Below, piece after piece: positions 2,301 to 30,175 of a stretch of 37,399 bases of DNA; the stretch's first letter is position 1; every line of letters begins with the position of its first letter. The position numbers and the translations under genes are program-made. The notes beneath the pieces were generated by a model, which made no database searches, had not been told where the DNA came from, and saw nothing but the letters and a program-made list of their open reading frames with translations. This DNA is from Candidatus Wallbacteria bacterium (GTDB lineage: Bacteria > Muiribacteriota > JAQTZZ01), in NCBI GenBank assembly GCA_028687545.1, contig JAQTZZ010000037.1:1-37399 (forward strand), given 5' to 3'.

Positions 2301-5300
2301 GTGACTGAATCTGAAAGCAGATCCCCAAATGCTGATCAACAATTGAAGTTGCTGCTGAATTCAGAAGACGAAGCTGAACGCAAGCAAGCTATAGTTCAGC
2401 TGTCCCGAAACCCAAGACGGGAAAATTTCCTGATTCTGCAAAAAATCTCAGATTTCGATGAATCAGTTGAAGTGCGTTTTTATGCTAAAAAAGCCCTGAA
2501 TATTCTGAAAAGCAGAATCACGCCCAGATTGACCGAAAAAGAGACGAGTGCGATCGGAACTGCTGAAATCGGAAAATTCATAGCTGGAAACGTTGAAAAC
2601 GAACAGGCTGTTCAGATCATTCAATATATTGTCAACAATGATTTAAAAGAAACACTGCCTGGCTTGATCACTGTTTTAAATCGGGAAAAAGACCCGAATA
2701 TCATTTCCACCTTGTTGATTGCAATCGGCAAATTCGGAAGTGAGAAAGAGATTAAAATCATTAATCCGTTTCTTTCACATGAAATCCCTAGAATTAGAGC
2801 CAATGCAATAGACGCTCTGGAATTGATCGGCAGTGTACGGGCTTATCCTCTGGTGATTTCGAAGCTGGAGGATAATGACAACAGGGTAAGAGCAAATGCC
2901 GTACGATTCGTCAGGGAACTCGGCGGTGTGAACACTCAGAAAATATTACGTGCCATGGCGGGCTCTCCAGGGAGCGCGATGCGCGCTTCGGCAGCATATG
3001 CGTATCAGTTTTATCCGGCTGAGGAAAATGTTGATCCATTAGTTCTGCTCCTGGAAAGCAGTGAGGTCACAGTCCGCAACAATGCGCTCAAAACATTGTC
3101 GATTTTCAAAAGCAAAGGGATTAAAAAAGCGCAGAGAGTACTGAAAAAATTCGAACCTGTGGCTGAAATCAAAGCTGAAAGCATGGAAGGGGTTGAACCT
3201 GAAACAGAGAACAAAGCAGGAACATGGAGCAGCTTAAAAGAGGAATTAACTAATCCTGATCTGGGTAAAAGGTTGAAAGCGATCACAGAAGCCGTGGAAA
3301 AAGGCTCCTGTGGCGCGATATTGTCAGAGCATCTGGCAAAAGAAAAAGATGTGATGGTAATTGCCACAATTATCATCGGACTGGGGAAACTCCAGTACAA
3401 AAAAGCACTGCCAGTTCTGGTCGGTTATCTCAAGGCGGAAGACGGCCGCTGCCGCGCAAATGCAGTAGAGGCATTAAGACTGATCAATGATAAAGATAAT
3501 TTAAAAGAAATAATCCCACTTCTGAAAGATGAAAACAACCGGGTCAGGGCGAACGCGATCTTTGCATTAAAAAGAGAGAAAATCCCTGAAACATTCACTA
3601 CCCTGCTGGAGATGGTCAATTCTGAAGATATGCTGATGCAGCTGTCAGCGATTTATGTGATTATGAAACTTGAGGATCCCGATTATTATGAATTGTTAAT
3701 TGATCTTGGAAAATCAAGATATCCTGAAGTCTCAAAAAAATCACGCGACAGCATTAAAGAACTTGAAATTCAGGGCATAAAAGTAGAAGATAATGCAGCA
3801 GCCGCACGCTCAAACCGTGTGTTTAAGATGTTTACCATTTCGACATTCGACCTCAGGGAAGAGCTCAATGCACTTCAGTCAGGAGTTTATCCGAAGTTAA
3901 AAGCGCTCTGCCAGGAACATGGCTATCGTTTTGAAGTGTGCGACCTCGACTTTGGAATCTCTGATGGAGCAATTGATCAACAGACAATGAAGAGCCGCCT
4001 TGAAGAAATCAAGCGCTGCCAGGAAATCTCGCCTCCTCCGTATTTCCTCATACTGCTTGGGGATCGTTACGGAATTCGGCAGCTGCCTGCTGAGATCCCG
4101 GAAAGCGAATTCACAAAAATTGTGGATAAGTTCCTCCTGAAAAGAAAAAGCGGTGATTGCACTGATGAAGGCCTTAATCTGCTTGGTTCGTGGTACAAGC
4201 GCGACCTGAATGCTCTGTATCAAAAAGACCAGGATGCAAAACCTGAGTTTTTATGGATCCTGCAGCCTAGAACTGGAGAGTATCTTGATCAGAAAGTCTG
4301 GGAGAAGGTGGTGCAAAAGCTTTGCGAGCTGTTCAAACTGTTGACAGATGATTTCAAAGAAGACCGCCGCCTGTCTTACAATGCTTCAGCCGCTTCCCGG
4401 GAAATTATCGACTGTGCCTTGAAAATCCGGGATAAACAGAAACATCTGTTTTGTTTCCTGAGAAAAATCACAAATCTGGAAGAATTGATTAAAGACCTGA
4501 ATTCAGCAGACTCCAAAGCCAGGGATTTCATTGACACAAAAAACGATATCTTTGATCAGGACTCCCACGATTTATCTGTTGAGGTCCAGAACCAACTCTA
4601 TAAAACTGTTCCTCAAAACATATTCGAATACGAGGAAAAATGGGAAAACGGCAGGCTGACTGACGGTCAGGTCAGCAAATTATGCGCTGACGCTTATCAG
4701 GCTCTGTCCTCTGCAATCTCTGCTAAAATTACACCAGACACTGAACCAGGGTCTTTGGCTTCAGAGATCCGGAACCATGAAAACTTCCGCATTGACAGTG
4801 AGATGGACTTTACAGGCCGCACAGAATACCTGAAGTTTATTGCAGATTATCTGAAGCTTAAAGTTCATCAAAAATCACCTTTAGCGATTTACGGAAAGCC
4901 AGGCAGCGGGAAATCGGCCCTGATGGCACATGCGATTAAAAATGAGCTCCTCAGAATCAGTCATGGCGTGACTGCCAGGCAATCGACAGTACACCCCCGC
5001 AATGCTATGAAAGGGGATAATCCGAATCCCCAGATAATTTACCGCTTCCTGGGTACAACTCCTGACTCTTCAAACATCCGATCCATGCTGGAAAGTATCT
5101 GCCGCCAGATTGCACAACTTTACACTCTTGACGAAAATACGATCCCCAGTGATTATGATGGCCTTGAGAAAGCATTTCCGGAATTGCTAAAATCCGCTGT
5201 ACCTGCCAAACCGCTGATCATATTTTTAGACGCCCTGGATCAACTGTCAAACCAGGATGCATCTGAATTGAGGTGGCTGCCTGCTGAATTACCGGAAAAT

Positions 5301-7550
5301 GTCAGGCTGGTAGTTACTACATTGGATCCAAGCGGATTCGAATCTGATGTCAAAGTTCAAGCTGCTGCAGATGCTGACCAATACTTAGAAAACCTGAAAA
5401 ATAAAATCCCGGAAAGCAACATCAGGGAACTGGGTAAAATGTCCGGTTCTGACGGCAAAGCATTACTGGACTGCTGGCTGAATAAGGCAAACCGGCAATT
5501 GCTCGACTGGCAGGAAAAACTGATTCTGAAGAGATTCAAAAATAACGGCAACCTGTTTTACTTGAAAATTGCTTCTCTGGAAGCTGAACGCTGGAAATCG
5601 TATACCACAACTGAAGAGATAAAGTTAAGCTCTGATCTCACAGGCATTATCAGAGACATGTTCGAGCGTTTGTCATTGCCTTCGAATCATGGGAAAATGA
5701 TCGTTTCCAGCGTACTTGGTTATCTTGCCGCCTGCCGCAACGGTTCCGCTGAAGATGAACTGCTGGAAATTCTGGCATCTGATGAGGAACTCCATCAATA
5801 CATCTCTCAGGAAAACAGGTATCAGAAAATCCTGAAAATTCAAAGCTCAGATAGTAAAAAAGCCAGGAGCGAAATCTCTGCAGCGATCTGGAAACCGCTT
5901 TATTTCGATCTGGCTCCATATCTGACCGGGTGCATGGCCGAAGGAACATTTTTAATCAGATTTTCCAACAGGCAATTCAGCCAAGTGGCCAAAGAAATGT
6001 TTCTGACAGAATCCGTGAAAAAAAAACGGCATGCAGTGCTGGCCAAATATTTTTTGAGTCAACCTCACTACCTGGAAAAAGCTCTTGAATCTGAAAAACA
6101 CAATTCAGTAAGAACAGTCAATTTCAGGAAATGTACCGAACTCCCCTATCAGCTGAGGAAAGCCCGAATGTTCGCTGAAAGTGAAAAAAACTTAACAGAC
6201 CTTGATTTCATAGAAGCTAAAAACCGGGGAGGAATGACTCAGGATCTGATTCAGGATTATGATTTTCTGGGAGGGTGCAAAAGGCCTGATCCACCTGTCA
6301 GGACCGCCTGGCAGCATAACGGTATATTGGGTATCAATTGCGTGTTCTGCAATGCCTGGTTTGCAATTGGCGAACTGGAACTTGATACAGTGATCAGCTG
6401 CAGGCATTGCGGCTCCAAAATTAAACTCAATCTTTTCATCATCAATGCAAAGTGGGAACCTAAACCCCCGGATAATGACCGCATGATTAAATTAAAGGAT
6501 TCCAACGGGGAAAATACAGAGTATGATTTTTCTTCAGCTTTCCATGAATTAGAGGACTTTGTACGATCCAGTGCACTGATCCTCTCCAAAAAGCCCGAAT
6601 GCATCTATCAGGCCATCTGTAAACCGGGTAATAAGATGCTTTTAAAACCCGCCTGCAAACTCCCGAAATCATGTTTGATGACCTTTTTCGGGCATACTGA
6701 CTGGGCTCAGGCTTGTGGTTTTTCTCCTGACGGGAAACTTGTGGTTTCAGGTTCCGCAGATCGCACTTTAAAAATCTGGGATGCAGGCTCTGGACAACTG
6801 CTGACCACACTTACCGGGCATACCGGCGGGGTCAATTCCTGCTGCTTCTCTCCTGACGGGAGGCGGGTGGTTTCATGCTCAGATGATAACACTCTGAAGA
6901 TCTGGGACGTTTCCGGACAACCACTTTTCACACTTACCGGGCACACTCACTCAGTTACCTCCTGCTGCTTCTCTCCTGACGGAAAGCTGGTGGTTTCAAG
7001 TTCTTATGATCATACCCTGAAAATCTGGGATGCAGATTCAGGACAGCAGCTTTGCACTCTTTCCGGACATACCGGGGAGATTGATTCCTGCTGTTTCTCT
7101 CCTGATGGGAAGCGGGTAGTCTCAGGTTCCTGGGATCACACCTTGAAAATCTGGAATGCAGGCTCGAGCCAGGAACAGGCCGCACTTGCCGCTCACACCA
7201 ATGTGGTAACTTCCTGCTGTTTCTCCCCTGACGGGAAGCGGGTGGTTTCAGGCTCTTATGATCAAACCCTGATGATCTGGGATGCGGACTCAGGACAGCA
7301 GCTGGCTACACTTACCGGACATACCAGCGGATGTAAGTCCTGCGAGTTCTCGCCTGACGGGAAGAGAGTGGTCTCAGGTTCTAATGATAACACTCTGAAG
7401 ATCTGGGATGCGGCCACCTTTAAAGAACTGGCCACTCTTACGGGGCATGGAAGCCCGGTTAATTCCTGCAGGTTCTCGCCTGACGGGAATCGGGTGATAT
7501 CAGGCTCCAGTGATAACACCCTGAAAATCTGGGGTGCAGGCTCAAGTTGA
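2301..7550 (+). CDS. giant STAND protein: HEAT - TEP1/NWD-like domain - NACHT - zinc ribbon - WD40
   Basis: A 1749-residue multidomain protein starting at GTG, with AAGG 8 bases upstream. Residues about 20-500 are HEAT-like repeats with the recurring RVRANA(V/I) motif. Residues 508-603 resemble the DUF4062-like N-terminal domain of eukaryotic TEP1/NWD1/NPHP3 proteins (start FKMFTISTF, middle VCDLDFGI, end LLGDRYGIRQLPAEI). The NACHT NTPase follows, with Walker A GKPGSGKS at 865-872, then RFLGTT, Walker B IIFLDALDQL and a VVTTLD sensor strand. A CxxC/CxxC zinc ribbon has its cysteines at 1347, 1350, 1367 and 1370. Seven WD40 repeats fill 1464-1749. STAND proteins are switch-like ATPases that oligomerise when the repeat region senses a ligand. 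Role here is unknown; defence or signalling are both plausible. No signal peptide. It has its own promoter and sits alone between rlmD and a secreted protein gene. Confidence 0.85.
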   Translation: MTESESRSPNADQQLKLLLNSEDEAERKQAIVQLSRNPRRENFLILQKISDFDESVEVRFYAKKALNILKSRITPRLTEKETSAIGTAEIGKFIAGNVENEQAVQIIQYIVNNDLKETLPGLITVLNREKDPNIISTLLIAIGKFGSEKEIKIINPFLSHEIPRIRANAIDALELIGSVRAYPLVISKLEDNDNRVRANAVRFVRELGGVNTQKILRAMAGSPGSAMRASAAYAYQFYPAEENVDPLVLLLESSEVTVRNNALKTLSIFKSKGIKKAQRVLKKFEPVAEIKAESMEGVEPETENKAGTWSSLKEELTNPDLGKRLKAITEAVEKGSCGAILSEHLAKEKDVMVIATIIIGLGKLQYKKALPVLVGYLKAEDGRCRANAVEALRLINDKDNLKEIIPLLKDENNRVRANAIFALKREKIPETFTTLLEMVNSEDMLMQLSAIYVIMKLEDPDYYELLIDLGKSRYPEVSKKSRDSIKELEIQGIKVEDNAAAARSNRVFKMFTISTFDLREELNALQSGVYPKLKALCQEHGYRFEVCDLDFGISDGAIDQQTMKSRLEEIKRCQEISPPPYFLILLGDRYGIRQLPAEIPESEFTKIVDKFLLKRKSGDCTDEGLNLLGSWYKRDLNALYQKDQDAKPEFLWILQPRTGEYLDQKVWEKVVQKLCELFKLLTDDFKEDRRLSYNASAASREIIDCALKIRDKQKHLFCFLRKITNLEELIKDLNSADSKARDFIDTKNDIFDQDSHDLSVEVQNQLYKTVPQNIFEYEEKWENGRLTDGQVSKLCADAYQALSSAISAKITPDTEPGSLASEIRNHENFRIDSEMDFTGRTEYLKFIADYLKLKVHQKSPLAIYGKPGSGKSALMAHAIKNELLRISHGVTARQSTVHPRNAMKGDNPNPQIIYRFLGTTPDSSNIRSMLESICRQIAQLYTLDENTIPSDYDGLEKAFPELLKSAVPAKPLIIFLDALDQLSNQDASELRWLPAELPENVRLVVTTLDPSGFESDVKVQAAADADQYLENLKNKIPESNIRELGKMSGSDGKALLDCWLNKANRQLLDWQEKLILKRFKNNGNLFYLKIASLEAERWKSYTTTEEIKLSSDLTGIIRDMFERLSLPSNHGKMIVSSVLGYLAACRNGSAEDELLEILASDEELHQYISQENRYQKILKIQSSDSKKARSEISAAIWKPLYFDLAPYLTGCMAEGTFLIRFSNRQFSQVAKEMFLTESVKKKRHAVLAKYFLSQPHYLEKALESEKHNSVRTVNFRKCTELPYQLRKARMFAESEKNLTDLDFIEAKNRGGMTQDLIQDYDFLGGCKRPDPPVRTAWQHNGILGINCVFCNAWFAIGELELDTVISCRHCGSKIKLNLFIINAKWEPKPPDNDRMIKLKDSNGENTEYDFSSAFHELEDFVRSSALILSKKPECIYQAICKPGNKMLLKPACKLPKSCLMTFFGHTDWAQACGFSPDGKLVVSGSADRTLKIWDAGSGQLLTTLTGHTGGVNSCCFSPDGRRVVSCSDDNTLKIWDVSGQPLFTLTGHTHSVTSCCFSPDGKLVVSSSYDHTLKIWDADSGQQLCTLSGHTGEIDSCCFSPDGKRVVSGSWDHTLKIWNAGSSQEQAALAAHTNVVTSCCFSPDGKRVVSGSYDQTLMIWDADSGQQLATLTGHTSGCKSCEFSPDGKRVVSGSNDNTLKIWDAATFKELATLTGHGSPVNSCRFSPDGNRVISGSSDNTLKIWGAGSS
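6690..7550 (+). repeat. tandem WD40-coding repeats, seven units of about 126 bp
   Basis: Seven tandem units of 41 or 42 codons (the last cut to 35) encode GH...SCCFSPDGKRVVSGSxDxTLKIWDA-type blades. Unit starts fall at residues 1464, 1506, 1547, 1589, 1631, 1673 and 1715. The DNA itself is conserved between units (for example ttctc(t/g)cctgacggga recurs in most), which points to recent duplication or gene conversion. Confidence 0.9.
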
Positions 7551-19607: not shown

Positions 19608-20525
19608 TCACTTGCTGCCGAAGAAGACCCGCTCAAACTGGCCGCACCAGGCTGAGAAATGATCAGGCGCAGCCCAGAATCTAAGCCTGCCGTCCTCAAG
19701 CACCAGCGAGCCGCCGTATGGGTATGACTGGTTACCCACAGCCATGGCAATGTCATTATGATGTTTGTGAACGTATTCCATATAACCAGAAGTGTTGTGA
19801 ATAAAGCAGAACCTTACCTGCTTGAAGCGCTTTATGGCGCTGATATAGCCCTGTTTCATGGAATCGATCCCGTAGCAGAGCGAATCGCCGTCATTGATGC
19901 TTTTGAGGTGATTGTCCACGAACTCGCGCACCACTTCGTCCGTGTCATAGCGCTCGGCAAGCACGTTGAGCAGAGCATGATTCAGCCTGCCTCCTCCTGA
20001 AAGTGCAAACTGCTCGTACCTGAGATCATTCTTTCCAGTGGCTTTCTCGATCTGATTGAAAATCGAGATCAGCAGCATGCCGTTCTCGCCGCCCTGGAAA
20101 GCGGGCCAATACTTTTCCGGGCTCACAGGGTAAGCCACTATCGCGCCTTCACCTGACTTGAGCTTCTTTTCCATCCTGTTGCGGTCTTCTTCGGTTTTGA
20201 CTGAATAGTCTGACTGATGGTCTCCATGGAGGCAGATATAGACAGTCTTTATATTCTTGGCGTTTCCAAGCAGCCAGAGCCTGGTGTAATCTATGGCTGA
20301 TTCAGTGCCGTCAAAGATCACCTTCTGGCCGTCCACATATTTGAATGTGGTCTCAGGGTCCTGTACGTCCAGATCGATATGAGGGAAATAGATCGGTTCA
20401 GAGCTCGATTCCTGCCCGTATGAGGCAAGCTCGTCGTTTAAAATATCAGGTACACCTTCTTCAACCGCGCACCAGGCTGAAAATGCAATCGACAAAATGA
20501 ATATAACTGCATGGATTTTTCTCAT
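19608..20525 (-). CDS. exported alpha/beta-hydrolase-like protein
   Basis: 305 residues with a clear signal peptide (IHAVIFILSIAFSAWCA, cleavage near 20). The fold resembles alpha/beta hydrolases: a strand ending in VYICLHGD (about 95-102, a typical oxyanion-loop position), a nucleophile-elbow-like ALSGGGRLNHALL with Ser176, and a late Asp-His in AAPDHFSAW (H289) that could complete a triad. The substrate is unknown; an esterase, lipase or peptidase are all possible. ATG start with GGGGGAG upstream. The gene is divergent from the wall hydrolase gene, and its promoter carries the TTGTAACTGG element in three 10-base-spaced copies, which groups it with the other exported proteins here. Confidence 0.55.
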   Translation of the reverse strand: MRKIHAVIFILSIAFSAWCAVEEGVPDILNDELASYGQESSSEPIYFPHIDLDVQDPETTFKYVDGQKVIFDGTESAIDYTRLWLLGNAKNIKTVYICLHGDHQSDYSVKTEEDRNRMEKKLKSGEGAIVAYPVSPEKYWPAFQGGENGMLLISIFNQIEKATGKNDLRYEQFALSGGGRLNHALLNVLAERYDTDEVVREFVDNHLKSINDGDSLCYGIDSMKQGYISAIKRFKQVRFCFIHNTSGYMEYVHKHHNDIAMAVGNQSYPYGGSLVLEDGRLRFWAAPDHFSAWCGQFERVFFGSK

Positions 20526-20564: not shown

Positions 20565-20620
20565 ATTCTAATGAAAATAATGGCCTGAAGCCAGTTACAA
20601 TTTGTTACAAGTTGTTACTA
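20565..20620 (-). promoter_or_regulatory. TTGTAACTGG-type promoter of the exported hydrolase gene
   Basis: On the minus strand three direct repeats (TTGTAAC-like cores at 20620-20614, 20610-20604 and 20600-20594, exact 10-base period; the first is TAGTAAC) end in TTGTAACTGG (20600-20591). After 20 bases comes the -10 TAGAAT (20570-20565). The start codon is about 33 bases beyond the expected transcript start. It occupies the left half of the 332-base divergent gap 20526-20857; the middle (20621-20746) holds nothing I can identify. Confidence 0.7.
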
Positions 20621-20746
20621 AAGTCAGAGCAGCCATTGAAATTCCATAATTGCTTGTTTCAGGTTATCTGTTTCTGCCTGAAAAAACGTCTGACTTTCTG
20701 CCTGGATCCGGTTGGTGATTAAGCTGGTGGAGTCCTGACCGACAAA

Positions 20747-20801
20747 TTGTAACCAATTGTAACAATTTGTAACTGGATTCATCCTGTATCTGTGTTAAAA
20801 T
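20747..20801 (+). promoter_or_regulatory. TTGTAACTGG-type promoter of the wall hydrolase gene
   Basis: Three perfect TTGTAAC repeats start at 20747, 20757 and 20767 (10-base period). The last one is extended to TTGTAACTGG (20767-20776). After 19 bases comes the -10 TAAAAT (20796-20801). The leader is about 50 bases and contains AAGTATAAGTA, also found in the clostripain leader. Confidence 0.75.
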
Positions 20802-20857
20802 GAATCTAAGCATGAAGTATAAGTATTAAAGTACGAAGTATTGTTGGGAGGATCGGC

Positions 20858-22249
20858 ATGGATAAGAATTTTGTGCTGCTTTGCTGCGTATTAATGTGCC
20901 TGTCAGTATTAAAGGCGAGTGAGTATGATTACAGGCAGGTCGTAGCTGAGGTGCTTGATAAGAGCGAAGCCTCACCTGAAGATGCCCAGCTCTGGGTATC
21001 TTATCTTCAGAAAGCCTCCAATGTAACTGTCGATGACACCCTGATCATGTTCCGCGAAGCTGCGGCTGAATTTTCAGTTCCGGAAATCCTTCTGGAAGCC
21101 ATCGGATACGTGGAGAACAACTGGACCCAGATCGGTCCCACGATCGACAGGGGCTGGGGCGTGATGCATCTCGTGGAAAACAACTACTGCGACACACTGG
21201 GCGAAGCAGCCAAGCTTCTCAATGTCGAGCGGCAGGTATTGAAGGACGATGCCAGGCAGAACATCCGCGGAGCAGCGGCACTGCTCGCTTTTTATGCAAA
21301 AGAGAGTGGAACCACTTCCTCCATCGAGGACTGGTTCCAGGCCGTTTCCAGATTCTCAGGCCTTATCAACCAGGATCTAAGGGATTATCAGGCATACAAT
21401 TACTTTACCATACTTAAAAATGGAATTGAGGAATTCAATATTTTCAATCAGAAAGTAGAAGTCAGAGCTAATCCTTCACTCGACCTTTCCAAAATCAGAC
21501 CCAGGAGCATGGACACCCGCGCCACCTCAGTAGATTATCCCGACGCCAAGGCTGCTTTCACCCCATATAATCATGTCGACGGCCGCAGCCACAGCATTGA
21601 TACCTGGGTTGTGCACTACATTTCCGAGGGCACTTACGCAGGAGCCATCTCCTGGTTCAACAATCCGGATGCCAAGGTCAGCGCCCACTTCTGCATCCGC
21701 CACACCGACGGTGAGATCACCCAGGTAGTGAAAGTCGGCGACACTGGCTGGCATTGCGGTGCGAGCAATGGTCAATCCAACAATCAACGCTCCATCGGCA
21801 TCGAGCACGAAGTCACAGTAGCCCATCCCGAATGGTGGGACAGTCAGCCCCAGTTGCAGGGATCGGCCAAACTCACCCGCTTTTTCTGCGATAAATACGG
21901 GATCCAGATCAGGCATGCCTTCCCCGGCATAGTCGGGCATAAGGAAATGCCGGGCTGCAATACCGACTGCCCTGCCAACTGCCCCTGGGACACTCTGATG
22001 GGATTGATCAAGGACAGTGGCTCCCCGGACCTCGCCCAGAAAGGAACAGTGAATACCGACGGCACCAATGTCCGCAAAGGTCCGGATACCAGTTATTCAG
22101 TGCTTATCACTCTGGACAAGGGCGCAGTAGTAACAATCATATCCAAGGAAGACCAATGGTATAAAGTGACACTTGCCGACAATCGCACAGGATACATCCA
22201 CGAATCCCTTTTGAACATCAGCGGAAAGGACTGGCAACCAGTCAGCTGA
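20858..22249 (+). CDS. exported peptidoglycan hydrolase: lysozyme-like - Amidase_2 - SH3
   Basis: 463 residues with signal peptide (NFVLLCCVLMCLSVLKA). The N-terminal part (about 60-190) resembles a lytic transglycosylase (SLT-like) domain: FSVPEILLEAIGYVENNW with candidate Glu86, then RGWGVMHL. An N-acetylmuramoyl-L-alanine amidase domain (Amidase_2, about 248-385) follows, with zinc ligand candidates H253 (WVVHY), H361 (VGHKEMPG) and a Cys or Asp in the CNTDCP stretch after it. The C-terminal SH3 domain (about 393-458; TNVRKGPDTSYSVL) should bind cell wall. It probably cleaves both glycan and peptide bonds of peptidoglycan outside the cytoplasm, either its own wall or that of other bacteria. 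ATG start with GGGAGG upstream. The promoter has three TTGTAAC repeats. Confidence 0.82.
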   Translation: MDKNFVLLCCVLMCLSVLKASEYDYRQVVAEVLDKSEASPEDAQLWVSYLQKASNVTVDDTLIMFREAAAEFSVPEILLEAIGYVENNWTQIGPTIDRGWGVMHLVENNYCDTLGEAAKLLNVERQVLKDDARQNIRGAAALLAFYAKESGTTSSIEDWFQAVSRFSGLINQDLRDYQAYNYFTILKNGIEEFNIFNQKVEVRANPSLDLSKIRPRSMDTRATSVDYPDAKAAFTPYNHVDGRSHSIDTWVVHYISEGTYAGAISWFNNPDAKVSAHFCIRHTDGEITQVVKVGDTGWHCGASNGQSNNQRSIGIEHEVTVAHPEWWDSQPQLQGSAKLTRFFCDKYGIQIRHAFPGIVGHKEMPGCNTDCPANCPWDTLMGLIKDSGSPDLAQKGTVNTDGTNVRKGPDTSYSVLITLDKGAVVTIISKEDQWYKVTLADNRTGYIHESLLNISGKDWQPVS

Positions 22250-22286
22250 TTTATTACCTAAGTCAGCAGTTTATAGCTGCAGTATT

Positions 22287-22322
22287 TTGTAACTGGAATC
22301 ATTCATTGATCCAAGGGATAAT
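22287..22322 (+). promoter_or_regulatory. TTGTAACTGG-type promoter of the 36-aa gene
   Basis: A single TTGTAACTGG (22287-22296) is followed after 20 bases by GATAAT (22317-22322). Upstream repeat copies are not evident. The leader is about 20 bases. Confidence 0.55.
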
Positions 22323-22348
22323 TCAGGAAAGAATTAACCGGAGGGTCT

Positions 22349-22459
22349 ATGAAGAAGAAAGTCGCTTTCTGGGGATTGATGATCGCTTCACTGCTCTATA
22401 TCGAACTCATGAATGGTCTTAAATTCAGGAGAAATCCATTGTATTCCCTGTCATGCTGA
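22349..22459 (+). CDS. small 36-aa membrane or secreted peptide
   Basis: Starts at ATG with GGAGGG close upstream. It begins MKKKVAFWGLMIASLLYIEL, three lysines then a hydrophobic run, which is either a single membrane helix with its N-terminus inside or a signal-like sequence. The tail is basic (KFRRN) and the last residue is Cys. What makes it credible is its own promoter of the TTGTAACTGG type, shared with the exported-enzyme genes around it. Only 11 bases separate its stop from that of the convergent C25-like protease gene. No family is recognised. Confidence 0.5.
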   Translation: MKKKVAFWGLMIASLLYIELMNGLKFRRNPLYSLSC

Positions 22460-22470
22460 ATCTGCATCCC

Positions 22471-23865
22471 TTAATCATCGATTCTGCAGTCAACGACAAT
22501 CCTCAGCAGTTCGCCTTTCCTGAAAGTCCTGCCCAGGGTATCAGCCAGGATGAAATTGTCGGTGACCTCGACAGTTTCGAAATCAGTTGATTTGATCTTC
22601 CAGTCTCTGATCCTGAAAGGAAGCAGAAATACAGGCGGCTTTGAATACTGGGGGTTAAATTTCAAGTCATTGTTCGTCTGCAGGCAGGCTGTGATTTCAC
22701 AGAAATCAGTTCCGGATTTTACTGTGGTCAATTTCATTTCATAATCAGGTGCAGCTACTTTCTTTACTCTGGCAGCCCAGGCCGGGTCGCCGTATAGCAC
22801 GGTGATTCCAAGGCAGCGTTCAGATTGAGCCTGCACCTCGCCTGTCCAGCAACTTTTCACAAGGTAGCGGGATGCCACCCGGTTCGCATAAACCGCCTCT
22901 GCGAAAGTGAATGCTCCCCTAAGGGTGGCGAAATAATTCCAGACCCCCCAGGCTGTGCAGTTCCGGTACTGCGGCTCGATATGCCCGTAAAACTGGTTGG
23001 CACCGTTGTGAATCCAGGACAAAGCCATGCATTCCATGGTCTTAGCAGGAATGTGAGCGATCAGGCAGTTGCCCGGACCATAATAGATCTTTGGATTCGT
23101 CGTGGTGATTTCGTAAGTGCAGTTGTTCAGATCAACTCCCTTAAGCCTTCCCCGATCAGCAGGTATAATCTTTCCATCTTTATATGCATATCCAAGTCTC
23201 CAGTCAAACTCAGTGGCATGCCCGCTCGTGACTATCACGTCGCAATCATTGTGATTCAGATATCTCACCCATTCGGCGGTCGTGTCCGCCGGGCCGGCAA
23301 CCGCTGCAGTGCTTTTTCCTTTTTCCTTAATGAATTTTGATCCCTGCACCCCTTCGTTGAAGGATACTCCAGACTCGATCCATGGGTCCATCCATCCGTT
23401 TCCCAGATGGGAAAGCTCCCTGCGAACTGTAAGAGGGCCTGCCTTGACTATGCGCAGTGCGTCGCGATAATCGTAACCTGTCAGGATCGCCCAGATTGCG
23501 TCATCGTATGGGTCATCATCAATGCTCTCCATCAGTCGGATGACGCTCTGAACATAATCCTCGTCGCAATGGTCGGGTCTGGTGATAAAACAGACATAAT
23601 ACGGCTTGTATGCGGAAAGTCCACGCTTCAGCGGCTGGCTCTTGTCAGCCGGTCCTTCAAACCAGAAGACTCTGGCATTGTACTTTGATTTCAGCTGGTT
23701 CAGCACAGAAAGCCAGCCTTCGGTGTCGCTGCCGGTATTGAATCCGCCGTTTTCCACGACAATCGCATACCTTCGCGCTTCGGTTCTGGCCTCAGCAGGT
23801 GAAAAGTTTAAAAGGATGGTCAATCCGGAAAATAAAACAAAACAGATTGATGCACATTTTGGCAT
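22471..23865 (-). CDS. exported caspase-fold (peptidase C25-like) protein
   Basis: 464 residues from the ATG at 23865, chosen over an in-frame GTG at 23877 because GTGAGG stands just before the ATG. The signal peptide is clear (ICFVLFSGLTILLNFSPAEA). The body resembles gingipain-type caspase folds: VIVTSGHATEF with candidate His216, a later strand GNCLIAHIP with candidate Cys267, and downstream WIHNGANQFYGHIEP and WGVWNYFATLRGAFTFAEA, which match the usual order of the family. Cysteine protease activity is inferred; the catalytic pair has not been aligned. A beta-rich C-terminal domain (about 370-464) is probably an immunoglobulin-like appendix. The gene lies 18 bases behind the STAND regulator on the same strand, so the two are probably one operon. 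Confidence 0.6.
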   Translation of the reverse strand: MPKCASICFVLFSGLTILLNFSPAEARTEARRYAIVVENGGFNTGSDTEGWLSVLNQLKSKYNARVFWFEGPADKSQPLKRGLSAYKPYYVCFITRPDHCDEDYVQSVIRLMESIDDDPYDDAIWAILTGYDYRDALRIVKAGPLTVRRELSHLGNGWMDPWIESGVSFNEGVQGSKFIKEKGKSTAAVAGPADTTAEWVRYLNHNDCDVIVTSGHATEFDWRLGYAYKDGKIIPADRGRLKGVDLNNCTYEITTTNPKIYYGPGNCLIAHIPAKTMECMALSWIHNGANQFYGHIEPQYRNCTAWGVWNYFATLRGAFTFAEAVYANRVASRYLVKSCWTGEVQAQSERCLGITVLYGDPAWAARVKKVAAPDYEMKLTTVKSGTDFCEITACLQTNNDLKFNPQYSKPPVFLLPFRIRDWKIKSTDFETVEVTDNFILADTLGRTFRKGELLRIVVDCRIDD

Positions 23866-23883
23866 ATTCAACCTCACTTTAGA

Positions 23884-26598
23884 TTAGCCGGCAGATTCAT
23901 CAGTATTTCCTGCAATGATAGGAAGAATCACGCAGAAATCCGTATGACTATTGAAATAGTAACAGGCCGGATCATTCGAGGAACGGATGAATCGTTCCAG
24001 TTTATTATCGCCCAGGCTTTTCCGTAATCTGGTAATGATCGCAGTCAATGTGGAACGGTCTTTGTCGAAATCATACTTGCGACCCCAGAGCTTTCTAAAA
24101 AGAGCTACCGGCTGGACTAAACGACCGGGTTTCACCACGAATTCGTATAAGAGGGGGACCTGTGTCTGTTTACCGAAAAAATTAACCCGCTTCCCGGAAA
24201 GCAGCAGTTCCTCTCCGGAATAATCAATGTAAATCTCATACTGTTCTTTTTTTTCTCTGATCCGTTTCAGTTCTGTCCGTCCGATCTCTTTATGTTTGAC
24301 CAGTCTGGTATGGAGAATGAATTCCTTCTTTTCAGGCGTAGAAAAGTTATCCAGAAACCAGTTGAATCCTTCCTCAATTTTATTTTTTCGTCTTTCCGGT
24401 TGCTCAGCAAGCAGTTTCTCGTATCGTGCGGTAGATTCGGAAATCAAGTCCTGATTTCCAACGAATTCCAATACCCGGATCTTAAGAAACAACACTTTGA
24501 TCAGGATGTCCTGATGCTGAGACCCGCAATATTCTTCAACTTGAGCCAGTAATTTCCCGGCTTCTTTCCATCTGCCCTGGAAAAGTTTGAGCTGTGAATA
24601 AATCAGCAGCAGCATGTTTTTACGCTCAGGATTGTTGAACTTCTCTAGAACTTCTAAGGCAACCTTCAGATGTTCTTCCGATTTTTCGTATTCCAGCAGG
24701 CCGAGATAAGCTTCTCCCGTGATTTCATTGAGAAATGACCGTTCGAATACCCAGTTGTTCCGCTCGATGAGGACTAAAGCTTTGCTTACAATCCTGATGG
24801 CTTTCTTGAATTCACGGAGATGATTGTAAATCAACCCCTTACCGGCATAGTTGTAAACCATGCCGTGAGGATTGCCGGTCTTCCGATTCAGGATCAGACT
24901 TTCAGAAAAGCAGTCGTCAGCTTTTGTAAAATCAGCCATCTGGATGTGAGCATTCCCTTTGTTTTGAAGTAGCAGGGCCAGTGACCCCAGAATATTGTGC
25001 CTGCGGTAAATCTCTTCAGCCAGGGAAAATTCCTCAAGCACGCCAGGATAATCCTCTTTATAGTAATGCAGCAGTCCATACCTGACATGAAAATTGGCTT
25101 CCAGTTGATCATCAACGCCTTTTTCCAACTCTAACTTAGCCTGCAGCATGCATTCTTCAGCTTTGCCCATGTCTCCAAGCTGTACATGGCACATCGCCAG
25201 GTCTATGAAAGCGTCCAGCCGCCTGCCTTCCGGGTGGCCGATCCTTAGGGTTTCGTTGTAATATTCAACTGCTTCCGGGTATTTGCTCTGATTAAAATAA
25301 ATCTTGGCACGCTGCAGAGCGGCAACTCCACTATGTTCCAACTGATCAACGACTTTCAGGGCTTCCTGATAGCGATGCCAGTAGATCAGGAATCCAGCCT
25401 TGCTTTGCAGAAGTTCCTGCCTGTAATGTGTTCCACAGAATTTCAGGGCATCTTCCAGCAACTGGTAAACACTTTCGGTCATGTCGCCGAGGGTCAGACG
25501 CTTGTCGCTTACCCGGGTCATCACTTCAGCAGCCATTCTAAGCTCTCCAGCCCTGTGAAAATGATAATAAGACTCGCACAATTCAGGTACTTTATCATTT
25601 CCAGCTCTAGCCAGATAATGTCCAACATCCTTGTGGATCTGAGCCAGCTGTGTAGGGCTCAACTGAGATCTGGCGTATTCGCGTATCAGGTCATGGACAT
25701 AAACTCCATTCCTGGCAGTTTCCAGGAGAAACTTGTCAGTCAGCCTTTTCTGTGCATTCCGGTGCCTTCGGCCTGAAAGAGACGGAAGTTCTACAGTATT
25801 GACTGGTATTCGCAGAACGGAAAGTGTTTTCAGAAGATCCTGTTCAGCCGGTTCTAGTGTTTCCCACAACAAATCGAGCAGATATTGACCCTGTTTTTCA
25901 CGGAATTCGCCGGACTGCCGCAGAAGTTCTTCAACATTGTGGCCACCTTCCACCAGGAGGCTGGCAAACAGCTTCAGCGAAAATGGATGTCCCTTGAATT
26001 CTTGAGTGATCCTGTGTTTCTGATCAGACGACATTTCTATCCCATGCAAATTCAGCATCTGTTCGAGCATTGAAAACGATTCTTCGATTTCCAGGCCATC
26101 CAGCAGGATTTCATTTGTGTCTGAGCGCCGATCAAGGTCAAGTGAGACGCGATTTCTGGAAGCGATGATCAGTTTTGCCCTTTGGAAAAGCTTCAGAGAA
26201 TACTCGATCAGCTGCAGCGAATTTTCATTTTCCACTAATTGGAAATCATCGATGCACAAAATCAAGGCATTGTCCTCGAGAATTTCGACGATTTTCTCCG
26301 GGGTATACCCGGTTTGAGACAGGTATTGCTTCTTTCCTGTCAATTGGATGATTTTCTGCAGAATGCTGGCCTGGAGGTCAGCCCACGTCCACCCGGACCG
26401 GCATGCTACCCAGATCAGTTTTTCCCCATAAGTTGCATTTTTTTTCAAGGAATTGGCAAAAGTCAGGACCAGTGCTGTTTTCCCCATTCCGGCGATCCCT
26501 GAGACCAGGGAAACCTTTTTTTCTGAAAAAAGGGAAGTCAGCCTGGCCAGTTCTTTTTTTCTACCGCAGAAACCGTGTGGTGCAGACGGTATCATCAT
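23884..26598 (-). CDS. STAND transcription regulator: NB-ARC - TPR - C-terminal OmpR-type winged helix
   Basis: 904 residues. The N-terminal NB-ARC-type NTPase has Walker A GIAGMGKT (34-41), Walker B ALILCIDDF, a KLIIASRN sensor strand, the GHPFSLKL motif and a winged-helix domain ending in VYVHDLIREYA. A long TPR region (about 340-740) follows, typical of a ligand- or partner-sensing arm. The C-terminal end (about 787-884) is a Trans_reg_C winged helix: KPGRLVQPVALFRKLWG, then ITRLRKSLGD and CYYFN. This resembles MalT/AfsR-type regulators in plan, but the DNA-binding domain is OmpR-like and at the C-terminus. It probably switches on transcription when the NTPase is activated. It precedes the C25-like protease and lies among five TTGTAACTGG promoters, its likely targets. 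Weak Shine-Dalgarno; probably leaderless. Confidence 0.82.
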   Translation of the reverse strand: MMIPSAPHGFCGRKKELARLTSLFSEKKVSLVSGIAGMGKTALVLTFANSLKKNATYGEKLIWVACRSGWTWADLQASILQKIIQLTGKKQYLSQTGYTPEKIVEILEDNALILCIDDFQLVENENSLQLIEYSLKLFQRAKLIIASRNRVSLDLDRRSDTNEILLDGLEIEESFSMLEQMLNLHGIEMSSDQKHRITQEFKGHPFSLKLFASLLVEGGHNVEELLRQSGEFREKQGQYLLDLLWETLEPAEQDLLKTLSVLRIPVNTVELPSLSGRRHRNAQKRLTDKFLLETARNGVYVHDLIREYARSQLSPTQLAQIHKDVGHYLARAGNDKVPELCESYYHFHRAGELRMAAEVMTRVSDKRLTLGDMTESVYQLLEDALKFCGTHYRQELLQSKAGFLIYWHRYQEALKVVDQLEHSGVAALQRAKIYFNQSKYPEAVEYYNETLRIGHPEGRRLDAFIDLAMCHVQLGDMGKAEECMLQAKLELEKGVDDQLEANFHVRYGLLHYYKEDYPGVLEEFSLAEEIYRRHNILGSLALLLQNKGNAHIQMADFTKADDCFSESLILNRKTGNPHGMVYNYAGKGLIYNHLREFKKAIRIVSKALVLIERNNWVFERSFLNEITGEAYLGLLEYEKSEEHLKVALEVLEKFNNPERKNMLLLIYSQLKLFQGRWKEAGKLLAQVEEYCGSQHQDILIKVLFLKIRVLEFVGNQDLISESTARYEKLLAEQPERRKNKIEEGFNWFLDNFSTPEKKEFILHTRLVKHKEIGRTELKRIREKKEQYEIYIDYSGEELLLSGKRVNFFGKQTQVPLLYEFVVKPGRLVQPVALFRKLWGRKYDFDKDRSTLTAIITRLRKSLGDNKLERFIRSSNDPACYYFNSHTDFCVILPIIAGNTDESAG

Positions 26599-26604
26599 GA
26601 CAGT

Positions 26605-26633
26605 ATTTTATTTCATTCTCAGTAAGAAGCCAA
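26605..26633 (-). promoter_or_regulatory. candidate promoter of the STAND regulator (leaderless geometry)
   Basis: On the minus strand TTGGCT (26633-26628) and TAAAAT (26610-26605) are 17 bases apart. Six bases (actgtc) separate the -10 from the ATG at 26598, the same geometry as at rlmD. It has no TTGTAAC element of its own orientation. Confidence 0.4.
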
Positions 26634-26667
26634 CATATTAATTTCCTATCAGTCCAAGTGCAGTAAT

Positions 26668-26702
26668 TTGTAACTGGAATCCACTGGTCATCAGATGATA
26701 AT
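26668..26702 (+). promoter_or_regulatory. TTGTAACTGG-type promoter of the 53-aa gene and secreted repeat protein
   Basis: A single TTGTAACTGG (26668-26677) is followed after 19 bases by GATAAT (26697-26702). It is divergent from the STAND regulator gene, whose candidate -35 lies only about 35 bases away, so a bound regulator could affect both. Confidence 0.6.
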
Positions 26703-26746
26703 AAATAATAACAGAAGAAAACAATCTCAAACTCAGCGGAGGAAAC

Positions 26747-26908
26747 ATGAGGAAGCTGGAAAAGAAAACTGCAAGTAACAAACAAGGATCCTATGAGAGG
26801 ATCAAAATTGTCTATTCGACACTTGACAGGAATTCGGAAAATTCCGTGAATGATGCCCAAAGCACTCCCTATTATGAAGAACGTTATATTCTGGTCAGGT
26901 GCAGGTAA
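26747..26908 (+). CDS. small 53-aa charged protein
   Basis: ATG start with a perfect GGAGG four bases upstream. The product begins MRKLEKKTASNKQGSYERIK and is rich in Lys, Arg, Glu and Tyr. It has no signal peptide or membrane segment, so it should stay in the cytoplasm unless exported otherwise. It is the first gene after the TTGTAACTGG promoter at 26668-26702 and is followed 44 bases later by a secreted protein in the same direction. Strong initiation signals and its place behind a shared promoter type support it as a real gene. No family is recognised. A chaperone, inhibitor or regulator for a neighbouring exported protein is possible but unsupported. Confidence 0.55.
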   Translation: MRKLEKKTASNKQGSYERIKIVYSTLDRNSENSVNDAQSTPYYEERYILVRCR

Positions 26909-26952
26909 TCAGTTCCAGCAAACTGAATTATTCAAAAACTTATGGAGGAGAA

Positions 26953-27810
26953 ATGTGTAACAGATTAATCTGTTGTGCAGCAGCGGTCCTGTTAATCTCA
27001 GGGCTAGCCCTGGCAGGGGAAGGCAGTTATTATGGAGTAGCTTATGTGAGCGTTCCCGCAGTATCTTCGGACGGATTTGACGCTTTCAGCATGAATGAAG
27101 CTACACAACTATGCAACAGTGCTGAAGAAGCCCAGGCTGCGGTAAAAAATCTCGAACAACGCTTGATCGACAAAGCCAGGAAAACCATGATGCTTACCTT
27201 AAAGGGAGACATGCTGTTCGACCATGGCACCATCGTTTCAGTCAACCAGGATGATAATCTGGAAAGGATCCAGTTGGAGAAGTTCAGCGGTGTCAATACA
27301 GTGACAATCTGGGACAAAGCACAGCCATACGAACAAGCCGGGCACTATGTCTATGTTTATGAAGCCAACGGACTTTACGGAACTTCCGCTGAAGCAGTCG
27401 CAGCAGCTGAAAAATCCGAGTGGATCGCTGTTTCCATGGCTATCGCAGCCGGAAAGTCCAAACTCGGACATCCGGACTGGAAAGACAGTCAGTTTTCCAG
27501 TCGCTGCGAGTATTCATTTAAAACCGTCCTGGTTTCTGAACATTACAGGGGATGGATCAAGGTTGCAGTCTGGTATAAAGACGAACCTGTCTATGCAGCA
27601 CAGTCAAACAACCGCTATAAAGTATATACATATTGTGCTCCAGGTACCTGGGAGACTGAAGATGAAGCTCTCCAGTCAGCCCATGATTTTACACAGCAGG
27701 CAGTCGCAGCGGCATTGTACCAGGGCGGAAAAGACCTGGGATGCGAGTGGGGCAGCGGGTATTACCTGCAGACTTCATGTCAGTATGGAGTAGAGACATT
27801 AAAAAAATGA
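26953..27810 (+). CDS. secreted protein of unknown function with internal repeats
   Basis: 285 residues from the ATG at 26953, which has GGAGGAG just upstream and opens a typical signal peptide (MCNRLICCAAAVLLISGLALA, cleavage near 21). An in-frame GTG further upstream lacks these signals. The mature protein has at least two related segments of about 45 residues: one starting YVYVYEANGLYGTSAEA and one starting YKVYTYCAPGTWETEDEA. Each has an aromatic strand followed by an Ala-rich helix and a Gly-containing end. The first third (SYYGVAYVSVP, then an Ala/Glu-rich helix) may be a third, diverged copy. I know no family for it. It ends at a clear terminator and is probably cotranscribed with the 53-aa gene. 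Confidence 0.7.
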   Translation: MCNRLICCAAAVLLISGLALAGEGSYYGVAYVSVPAVSSDGFDAFSMNEATQLCNSAEEAQAAVKNLEQRLIDKARKTMMLTLKGDMLFDHGTIVSVNQDDNLERIQLEKFSGVNTVTIWDKAQPYEQAGHYVYVYEANGLYGTSAEAVAAAEKSEWIAVSMAIAAGKSKLGHPDWKDSQFSSRCEYSFKTVLVSEHYRGWIKVAVWYKDEPVYAAQSNNRYKVYTYCAPGTWETEDEALQSAHDFTQQAVAAALYQGGKDLGCEWGSGYYLQTSCQYGVETLKK

Positions 27811-27837
27811 ATATAAATCCGTGAATCCTAACAATCC

Positions 27838-27866
27838 AAAAAGGCACCTGAAAAGGGTGCTTTTTT
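27838..27866 (+). terminator. Rho-independent terminator
   Basis: GGCACC/GGGTGC hairpin with a short loop, an A-run before and a six-T run after (27861-27866). It closes the transcript of the secreted repeat protein. Confidence 0.85.
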
Positions 27867-27980
27867 GATTGTACCTGTTTCAGCACTTTGACCGCTAACC
27901 AGGGATCGGCAGATTCTGAAACCGATTTGTAACATCATGTTCACAATTCCTATGGTTGACGCTCTTCCCAGTGTTACAAT

Positions 27981-28035
27981 TTGAAACAAATTGTAACAAA
28001 TTGTAACTGGTATTGCTGTGGAATAGCCATATAAT
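27981..28035 (+). promoter_or_regulatory. TTGTAACTGG-type promoter of the clostripain gene
   Basis: Three cores at 27981 (TTGAAAC), 27991 and 28001 (both TTGTAAC) have an exact 10-base period and end in TTGTAACTGG (28001-28010). After 19 bases comes a consensus TATAAT (28030-28035). An inverted GTTACAA-like copy lies at 27973-27979 and an isolated TTGTAAC at 27927. This is the strongest -10 of the five. Confidence 0.75.
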
Positions 28036-28179: not shown

Positions 28180-29712
28180 ATGAAGCTCAGCATCGTATTC
28201 ATCTTAGCAATCGCTTTAATGGTCTCGTTCGTCAATCCAACAACAGCAGCAACCAAAAAACCCTGGACATTCATGGTCTACCTCGATGGCGACAACAACC
28301 TCGAACCATATGGCATCATGAACGTCAATCAGATGGAAAAAGTCGGTTCCACCGATGCCACCAATGTTGTAGTGCTCTTTGACAGGGCATCCGGATACGA
28401 TTCCACCAACGGCAACTGGACAGATTCCAGGATCATGTATATCACCAAAGACAATGACACCAGCATCATGAATTCCAAAGTCGTAAAGAATTGCGGCGAA
28501 CTTGACATGGGTTCCGGAAAAACCCTCACAGATTTCGTGCAGTACTGCAAGGACAATTATCCGGCCGAGCATTATTTTCTGACTCTCTGGAACCATGGCG
28601 CAGGCTGGAAAAAGAAAGGCGGAAATGATGTGATGAGGGGCGTCTGCTATGACGACCAGAGCGGCAATCATATGGACATGGCCTCAGTGGAAAACTCAAT
28701 GGTCGCCATTAAGGGCATACTCGGCCAGAAACTTGATGTGCTCGACTATGACGCCTGCCTGATGGCCATGCTCGAATGCAATTATCAGATCAAGGATACC
28801 GTGGATTACATGACTGCTTCCGAAGAAACCGAACCAGGCGACGGCAACCCATACGAGCTGATGCTCAACGGTCTGACCGCCAGCACAACTCCGGAGCAGT
28901 ATGCGATTCACATTGTTGATTCTTATAAAGAATATTATTCCAGCGGTTCTGAAGGTGTAACCAAGTCCGCAGTGGACCTTTCCAAAATCCAGGCTCTGAC
29001 CACTGCTGTGGCTGACGCTGCCAATGCCATGAACGGCAAGATCAGCGCTGTGAAGACTGCCATCACTACAGCCAGGAAGAGCGTGCAGGTCTTCTACGAT
29101 GCAGACTATGCGGATCTTTCCCACCTCTGCTCCACAATCAAAACCACTGACACCACAATCAAACCCAAGCTGGATGCAGTAGTTGCAGCGGTCAAGGCAG
29201 CAGTCATCAACAACTGCACAGTCGGCACTGCAATGAAGAACGCTACAGGAATCTCAATTTATTTCCCAAGTTCGAGCGGCAGCTATCTGACAAAGTATGA
29301 TGGTCTCTCATTCTGCACAGCCACAAAATGGAACAAATTCCTCTCAGCCTATTACAAAGGCTCCAGTGTCAGTGTGGAACCTGTAGCCGAAAACACCCCA
29401 GCCGAAACACCGAGCACCAGCGGCAGCTGGTGGGACAACTGGTTCGGCAGTTACACTGCTCTTCAGACAGAGAAGCTGAACCTGATCAATGCCGGCAGGC
29501 TTGAGGAAACCATGGCCATGACAATCGCCCAGAGGGATGCTCAGATGGTGGAAGAAGCCCGCTGCCAGATCGAGACAGCCATAGAGAACAACACCATTCA
29601 CCAGCTGATTGCCAACATCAGCAGCCTGAACGATGATCAGAAACTGGCGGTTGCCCCCGTAGTGGAAGAAATCAAAGCCCAGCTCATCATCGCCCAGTTA
29701 CAGAAACATTAA
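28180..29712 (+). CDS. exported clostripain-family (C11) cysteine protease
   Basis: 510 residues with signal peptide (LSIVFILAIALMVSFVNPTTA). The caspase-like C11 core follows at once: KPWTFMVYLDGDNNLE, catalytic His139 in LTLWNHGAGW, the RGVCYDD strand, and catalytic Cys193 in LDYDACLMAMLE, followed by the typical MTASEETEPGDGNPY. Family members cut after basic residues, often after self-processing. After the core (about 390) come a Pro/Thr/Ser linker and a helical C-terminal domain of about 100 residues, which is not part of clostripain. Secreted degradative or processing role. It has a TTGTAACTGG promoter, a long leader and a strong terminator, so it is a one-gene transcript. Confidence 0.88.
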   Translation: MKLSIVFILAIALMVSFVNPTTAATKKPWTFMVYLDGDNNLEPYGIMNVNQMEKVGSTDATNVVVLFDRASGYDSTNGNWTDSRIMYITKDNDTSIMNSKVVKNCGELDMGSGKTLTDFVQYCKDNYPAEHYFLTLWNHGAGWKKKGGNDVMRGVCYDDQSGNHMDMASVENSMVAIKGILGQKLDVLDYDACLMAMLECNYQIKDTVDYMTASEETEPGDGNPYELMLNGLTASTTPEQYAIHIVDSYKEYYSSGSEGVTKSAVDLSKIQALTTAVADAANAMNGKISAVKTAITTARKSVQVFYDADYADLSHLCSTIKTTDTTIKPKLDAVVAAVKAAVINNCTVGTAMKNATGISIYFPSSSGSYLTKYDGLSFCTATKWNKFLSAYYKGSSVSVEPVAENTPAETPSTSGSWWDNWFGSYTALQTEKLNLINAGRLEETMAMTIAQRDAQMVEEARCQIETAIENNTIHQLIANISSLNDDQKLAVAPVVEEIKAQLIIAQLQKH

Positions 29713-29833: not shown

Positions 29834-29909
29834 GGGCGAATAGCTCAGTTGGGAGAGCATCGGCCTTACACGCCGGCGGTCGCAGGTTCAAACCCTGTTT
29901 CGCCCACCA
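29834..29909 (+). tRNA. tRNA-Val (anticodon TAC)
   Basis: A full cloverleaf with GGGCGAA acceptor and its complement TTCGCCC, anticodon loop CTTACAC giving TAC, T-loop TTCAAAC, and an encoded CCA end. Confidence 0.95.
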
Positions 29910-29919
29910 GAAGAATCAC

Positions 29920-29997
29920 GGAGCGGTGGTGTAGCCCGGTTAGCACATCGGCCTGTCACGCCGAAGGTCGCGAGTTCAAATCTCGTCCGCTCCGCCA
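29920..29997 (+). tRNA. tRNA-Asp (anticodon GTC)
   Basis: Acceptor GGAGCGG pairs with CCGCTCC. The anticodon loop CTGTCAC gives GTC, with G as discriminator and CCA encoded. It follows tRNA-Val by 10 bases. Confidence 0.95.
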
Positions 29998-30015
29998 TTT
30001 CTTATAGAATCAGGT

Positions 30016-30091
<76 letters not shown>

Positions 30092-30100
30092 TTCTCATAG

Positions 30101-30175
30101 GGCGGCATAGCCAAATTGGTAAGGCAAAGGACTGCAAATCCTTCAATCCCGGTTCGAGTCCGGGTGCCGCCTCCA
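30101..30175 (+). tRNA. tRNA-Cys (anticodon GCA)
   Basis: Acceptor GGCGGCA pairs with TGCCGCC. The anticodon loop CTGCAAA gives GCA, the discriminator is T (usual for Cys), and CCA is encoded. Only 16 bases separate it from the PBP start codon. Confidence 0.95.

Follow-up and report, generated by a model that had tools for sequence, protein, structure and literature searches.

The stretch of DNA analysed here, 37,399 nucleotides (nt) from Candidatus Wallbacteria bacterium (the window, which is contig 37, C37, of the 4.54-Mb genome G000), carries five copies of a 10-letter element, TTGTAACTGG, at 20600-20591 on the minus strand and at 20767-20776, 22287-22296, 26668-26677 and 28001-28010 on the plus strand. 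Each is followed by a -10 box (TAGAAT, TAAAAT, GATAAT, GATAAT and TATAAT, beginning after 20, 19, 20, 19 and 19 nt, respectively), and the window holds no further full copy, all as the original prediction had reported. That prediction, made from this stretch alone, also held that the five promoters serve exported or very small proteins, which agrees with the genes found: P1, P2 and P5 precede proteins with signal peptides, P3 precedes a peptide of 36 amino acids (aa), and P4 precedes a 53-aa open reading frame (ORF) and then a signal-peptide protein. P4 begins 70 base pairs (bp) from a divergent gene encoding a putative regulator of the STAND class. The features are as follows.

20565..20620, minus strand: promoter P1; half-sites TAGTAAC (20620-20614), TTGTAAC (20610-20604) and TTGTAAC (20600-20594), weak -35 TGGCTT (20593-20588), -10 TAGAAT (20570-20565)
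19608..20525, minus strand: P1 target, 305 aa, with a signal peptide and no Pfam or NCBIfam match
20747..20801, plus strand: promoter P2; three TTGTAAC half-sites, one per 10 bp (20747, 20757, 20767), weak -35 TGGATT (20774-20779), -10 TAAAAT (20796-20801)
20858..22249, plus strand: P2 target, an exported Amidase_2 and SH3 protein of 463 aa
22277..22322, plus strand: promoter P3; half-sites CTGCAGT (22277-22283) and TTGTAAC (22287-22293), weak -35 TGGAAT (22294-22299), -10 GATAAT (22317-22322)
22349..22459, plus strand: P3 target, a putative ORF of 36 aa (MKKKVAFWGLMIASLLYIELMNGLKFRRNPLYSLSC) with a basic N-terminus and a hydrophobic stretch, its coding status unproven
23884..26598, minus strand: candidate STAND regulator of 904 aa; NB-ARC at residues 26-234, TPR at about 422-726 and a C-terminal Trans_reg_C winged helix at 812-872
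26658..26702, plus strand: promoter P4; half-sites GTGCAGT (26658-26664) and TTGTAAC (26668-26674), weak -35 TGGAAT (26675-26680), -10 GATAAT (26697-26702)
26953..27810, plus strand: P4 target, 285 aa with a signal peptide, behind the 53-aa ORF (from about 26747)
27981..28035, plus strand: promoter P5; half-sites TTGAAAC (27981), TTGTAAC (27991) and TTGTAAC (28001), weak -35 TGGTAT (28008-28013), -10 TATAAT (28030-28035)
28180..29712, plus strand: P5 target, an exported clostripain-family (Peptidase_C11) protein of 510 aa

Genome-wide, TTGTAACTGG occurs in 30 exact copies, versus 6 for the reversed control pattern; 25 copies are intergenic and 5 lie within ORFs. A -10-like hexamer begins 19 or 20 nt after 20 of the 24 non-redundant intergenic copies (8 at 19 nt, 12 at 20 nt), against a mean of 1.4 and a maximum of 8 such sites in 20,000 letter shuffles, and every other offset from 8 to 33 nt accounts for at most three intergenic sites. 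None of the five copies within ORFs has a -10 at these distances, and these probably represent chance occurrences. Fixed spacing that is hard to explain by chance, the core of the original prediction, is thus borne out by both the counts and the control. The enrichment ahead of exported proteins that it had set as the check on a candidate regulon for secreted enzymes is likewise found across the genome: with a crude predictor, 21 of the 25 intergenic copies stand ahead of a gene whose product has a signal-peptide-like N-terminus, against a baseline of 15/55 genes in unselected stretches. Judged from sequence, the regulon is real, and stronger than had been claimed.

When the sites are aligned on the 10-mer, conservation extends beyond it: A(A/T)T follows, and TGCAGCA or TGTAACA precedes it at a distance of exactly 10 bp. 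The operator unit is a direct repeat of heptamers in up to three copies, as in P2 (TTGTAAC-CAA-TTGTAAC-AAT-TTGTAAC), and the full promoter consists of a half-site TGYARCA or TTGTAAC, a TTGTAAC 10 bp further on, a weak -35 (TKGAWT), a spacer of 16-17 bp and a sigma-70-type -10. Because conservation exceeds the 10-mer and TGGAWT occupies the -35 place, 16-17 bp ahead of the -10, we read TTGTAACTGG as an inner half-site TTGTAAC joined to a degenerate -35. The original prediction, which saw no TTGACA-like -35, was correct only in part, as a weak -35 matching TTGACA at three to four of six bases is present; its 10-mer stands, whereas the wider conservation, the direct repeat, this -35, the small-RNA targets and the STAND family described below had been overlooked. 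Class II activators usually sit directly upstream of a weak -35. The operators described here lie directly upstream of or overlapping such a -35, at a fixed distance from the -10 in the 20 of 24 copies noted above, and their centre, near -43 by position, suggests class II activator geometry; tandem half-sites at 10-bp steps and a weak -35 fit an activator acting at the -35.

Targets of TTGTAACTGG in G000 comprise about 20 genes for exported proteins, including three clostripain-family C11 peptidases, three papain-like C1 peptidases, one S41 peptidase, one amidase and many unknown exported proteins, together with a small RNA. Three intergenic copies (on C25, C38 and C69) have no ORF behind them and stand ahead of a putative RNA of 115-121 nt that carries a hairpin with a C-rich loop as well as an intrinsic terminator, and for which there is no Rfam match above the gathering score. 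A covariance model recovers these three copies and two more in G001, the single other genome of the same family in our comparison, which covered 40 genomes of the phylum; the G001 pair lies directly behind TTGTAACAAATTGTAACTGG promoters, and a regulon-type promoter precedes 5/5 copies, in both genera.

C25:54745-54861, C38:14981-15098 and C69:4588-4702: small-RNA copies in G000
C125:6533-6636 and C414:1793-1857: small-RNA copies in G001

All five share an invariant 22-nt core, ACCTGTAGTCCACTTATACTCT, and their terminator stems, compared by eye, vary in sequence with pairing kept; the loci on C25 and C69 are near-identical. Complementarity to the core in 5' leaders is not above that of shuffles (5 genes with at least 10 nt, against a mean of 1.9 and a maximum of 12), and we therefore claim no target for the RNA.

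A promoter model gave 11 matches in G001 (E up to 0.1), and of the seven read out, six stand ahead of exported genes or the small RNA. A sister form, TTGTAACTTG, which in G001 often reads TTGTAAC-TTGACC and is thus closer to the consensus -35, precedes exported genes in 9 of its 12 copies in G000; as a bare 10-mer it shows no enrichment (12 and 10 copies, with 16 and 18 for reversed controls), and it is therefore informative in promoter context alone. In phylum genomes outside the family the promoter is not detectable, the weak distant matches that were read out falling inside ORFs.

The protein divergent from P4 combines the parts of a STAND ATPase, namely an NB-ARC/NACHT-type P-loop ATPase, a helical-repeat sensor and an effector domain (NB-ARC, E=1.6e-14; TPR_12, 7.5e-15; Trans_reg_C, 2.5e-7). 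Its top sequence match in the PDB is the archaeal STAND protein PH0952, and the profile of its winged helix-turn-helix (wHTH) matches SaeR, PcoR, PhoB and others there. G000 encodes 26 STAND-TPR proteins of ∼900 aa with a C-terminal OmpR-type winged helix, some of them truncated or at contig ends, and G001 encodes nine STAND-wHTH paralogs; other members of the phylum have none to four, weaker ones, and among the 40 genomes both the expansion and the promoter are limited to this family. A scan of a named genome collection found no relatives of the window protein, and searches of the open literature, largely its open-access part, found no description of such a STAND-wHTH family. Signal-peptide genes adjoin most of the paralogs, and three STAND genes have a TTGTAACTGG site nearby, at 35, 70 and 113 bp, where 0.06 would be expected within 200 bp.

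The STAND genes also look leaderless: in the window gene (about 26598-26620) and 30 others, a -10-like hexamer stands 6-7 nt ahead of the in-frame ATG in 25 of 31, versus 0 of 62 out-of-frame ATG controls. An anti-phage role for these proteins was considered and set aside, PADLOC returning nothing for the window protein and generic TPR matches alone for the paralog on C15.

Exported neighbours of several other paralogs have promoters of the same layout with different half-site letters.

TTGCTGC, TTGCCGC and TTGCAACTTC: operator letters at C1:90880, C48 and C10, paralogs of one clade
ATGAAACAGG, ATGAAGCAGA and ATGAAACTTC: operator letters at C98, with similar ones at C91
TTGAAACANATTGTTCCTTG: operator at C82 and at its G001 ortholog, C500
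ATACAACCTGATACAACT: operator on both flanks of C46
ATGATACGCC: operator at C71

Fifteen such operators were listed, each followed after 19 or 20 nt by a -10-like hexamer, which is the best within 10-30 nt in thirteen of them. In a blind check, period-10 repeats with a -10 appeared in 8 of 40 promoters of exported genes flanking STAND genes, against 0-2 at periods of 7-9 and 11-13. The TTGCNGC operator has exactly two genomic copies, each beside one of two sister STAND genes, and TTGAAACANATTGTTCCTTG has six copies (at most two mismatches) across two genera; every copy shares its contig with a STAND gene, and for some the distance to that gene exceeds 1 kb. Similar winged helices accompany similar operators: a wHTH tree clusters operator-sharing paralogs together, and a Mantel test of wHTH similarity against neighbour-promoter similarity gave p 0.001, or 0.005 with homologous neighbours excluded. 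Other paralogs appear to use the same layout, each with its own half-site, for adjacent exported genes. Paralogs near TTGTAAC (C37, C29:17961, C60:14032, C1:118921 and C15) all sit in the same half of the tree, a grouping with weak support. In the Mantel table, the promoters at C82 and C71 gave a 20/20 match, which proved to be a separate repeated element, TGTCAAATGTATAGACCCGGTACA, found upstream of two unrelated exported genes (C82:9389 and C71:8423) beside STAND genes.

The regulon, its geometry, its linkage to the small RNA, the paralog family and the neighbour operators can all be read from the DNA itself, and suggest, with a probability that we put at roughly 0.7, a family of STAND-wHTH activators with co-diverged direct-repeat operators, of which TTGTAACTGG would be the global version, regulating exported proteins and the small RNA. 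For binding, activation, signal and the identity of the reader of TTGTAAC, we infer the following. TTGTAACTGG would comprise the proximal half-site TTGTAAC and the first bases of the weak -35 (TKGAWT) of a class-II-type activator promoter; half-sites 10 bp apart would lie on the same face of the DNA, with winged-helix domains side by side on the direct repeat, holding RNA polymerase at the weak -35. Most likely, the binder would come from the expanded STAND (NB-ARC)-TPR-wHTH family, whose members, by analogy, may be switched by ligand and ATP, and once switched would turn on the exported proteins (C11, C1 and S41 peptidases, the amidase and many unknowns) and the small RNA. Our best guess for the paralog that reads TTGTAAC is that on C15, because its own start is preceded by four TGTAAC half-sites and a conserved ortholog exists in G001 (53% identity, with just one other paralog group, that of C82 with a different operator, above 50%); the second candidate is the window paralog, with five sites around it and P4 70 bp away, and a response regulator may be the reader instead. 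The fullest form of the proposal, in which ∼26 STAND (NLR-like) regulators act in parallel, their winged helices and operators co-diverged within a fixed layout, each answering its own cue with its own secreted proteins and one running a global secreted-peptidase regulon that includes the small RNA, has in our judgement an even chance of being correct.

Several observations weigh against a STAND-wHTH reader. Most TTGTAACTGG sites are far from STAND genes, no operator is recognisable near several of the paralogs, the fifteen neighbour operators were selected by eye, and the correlation in the Mantel test is weak (r 0.16-0.20); the system is present in just two genomes, so phyletic co-occurrence is weak evidence, and G000 also encodes four ordinary OmpR-family response regulators. 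One of these, WalR/VicR-like or OmpR-like, might read TTGTAAC and run the secretome regulon, the STAND proteins acting only locally or being unrelated, an alternative that we regard as unlikely. The WalR/VicR operator is TGTWAH-N5-TGTWAH with an 11-bp period, and TGTAAC fits its half-site (PMC4168254); its reader, a WalR-type response regulator paired with WalK, likewise has an OmpR-family wHTH, and exported wall enzymes abound in WalR regulons, as exported enzymes do among the present targets. The period here is 10 bp, however, the linkage is to STAND proteins and not to a two-component pair, and beside other STAND genes there are additional, paralog-specific half-sites in related operators of the same geometry. 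The four response regulators have no tandem TGTAAC in the 3.2-kb stretches that surround them, whereas three STAND genes have TTGTAACTGG 35-113 bp away.

That the conserved block overlaps the -35 region with rigid spacing, and that no protein binding it is known, would also suit an operator for a repressor, or a core promoter variant read by a special sigma factor. Both seem improbable: an ordinary sigma-70-type -10 stands with a weak -35 (3-4/6 matches), up to three half-sites at 10-bp steps upstream are unexplained by a sigma site, and class II activators usually bind immediately upstream of a weak -35. Recent duplication of promoter-gene cassettes, leaving the shared element as residual ancestry alone, could be argued from the paralogous peptidases among the targets and the near-identical C25 and C69 loci; we disfavour it as very improbable, since most target proteins belong to different families or are unknown, the flanking promoter DNA differs while element and spacing are constant, and the pattern recurs in another genus, that of G001.

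The proposed STAND-wHTH activators resemble several known systems in part. MalT is an activator of ∼900 aa with a STAND ATPase, a TPR-like sensor and a C-terminal helix-turn-helix of the LuxR type; the proteins described here share this size, the STAND ATPase, the TPR-like sensor and a C-terminal DNA-binding domain, but have an OmpR-type wHTH, 26 paralogs and diverged operators. At PhoB/OmpR class II promoters, tandem direct-repeat wHTH sites abut or replace a weak -35, and tandem direct repeats meet a weak -35 here too, with other half-sites and, as candidate regulator, a STAND ATPase without a receiver domain. AfsR, a SARP with NOD and TPR, works on a poor promoter, which it activates from direct repeats that overlap the -35; in SARP operators the repeats are spaced 11 or 22 bp apart, 8 bp separate the 3' repeat from the -10, and the box has its centre at -29.5 (PMC10936776). 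AfsR and the large Streptomyces SARPs similarly unite a STAND-type NTPase (NOD), TPR and an OmpR-type wHTH in one large protein, and share a direct-repeat operator at a poor -35 promoter that, here by analogy, would need an activator. In AfsR, however, the wHTH is N-terminal and accompanied by a BTA domain, whereas here it is C-terminal (812-872) with BTA not listed in Pfam scans, and the repeats are 10 bp apart, at 22-23 bp from the -10, and by position have their centre near -43. Since domain order, the absent BTA domain, repeat period and position all differ, we do not consider the present family to be SARPs.

An uncultured lineage thereby gains a readable regulatory code, in which promoter layout predicts part of the secretome and a small RNA. 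The candidate activator-operator pairs form a natural paralogous set for studying how winged-helix specificity diverges and for asking how NLR-like ATPases control transcription, and the half-site assignments are directly testable in a laboratory strain.

Elsewhere in the window, four consecutive tRNA genes (29834-30172, plus strand) adjoin the clostripain gene, and an ORF of 1749 aa (2301-7550) appears by eye to contain HEAT-like repeats, a P-loop ATPase region and WD40-type repeats, resembling a STAND-like giant.

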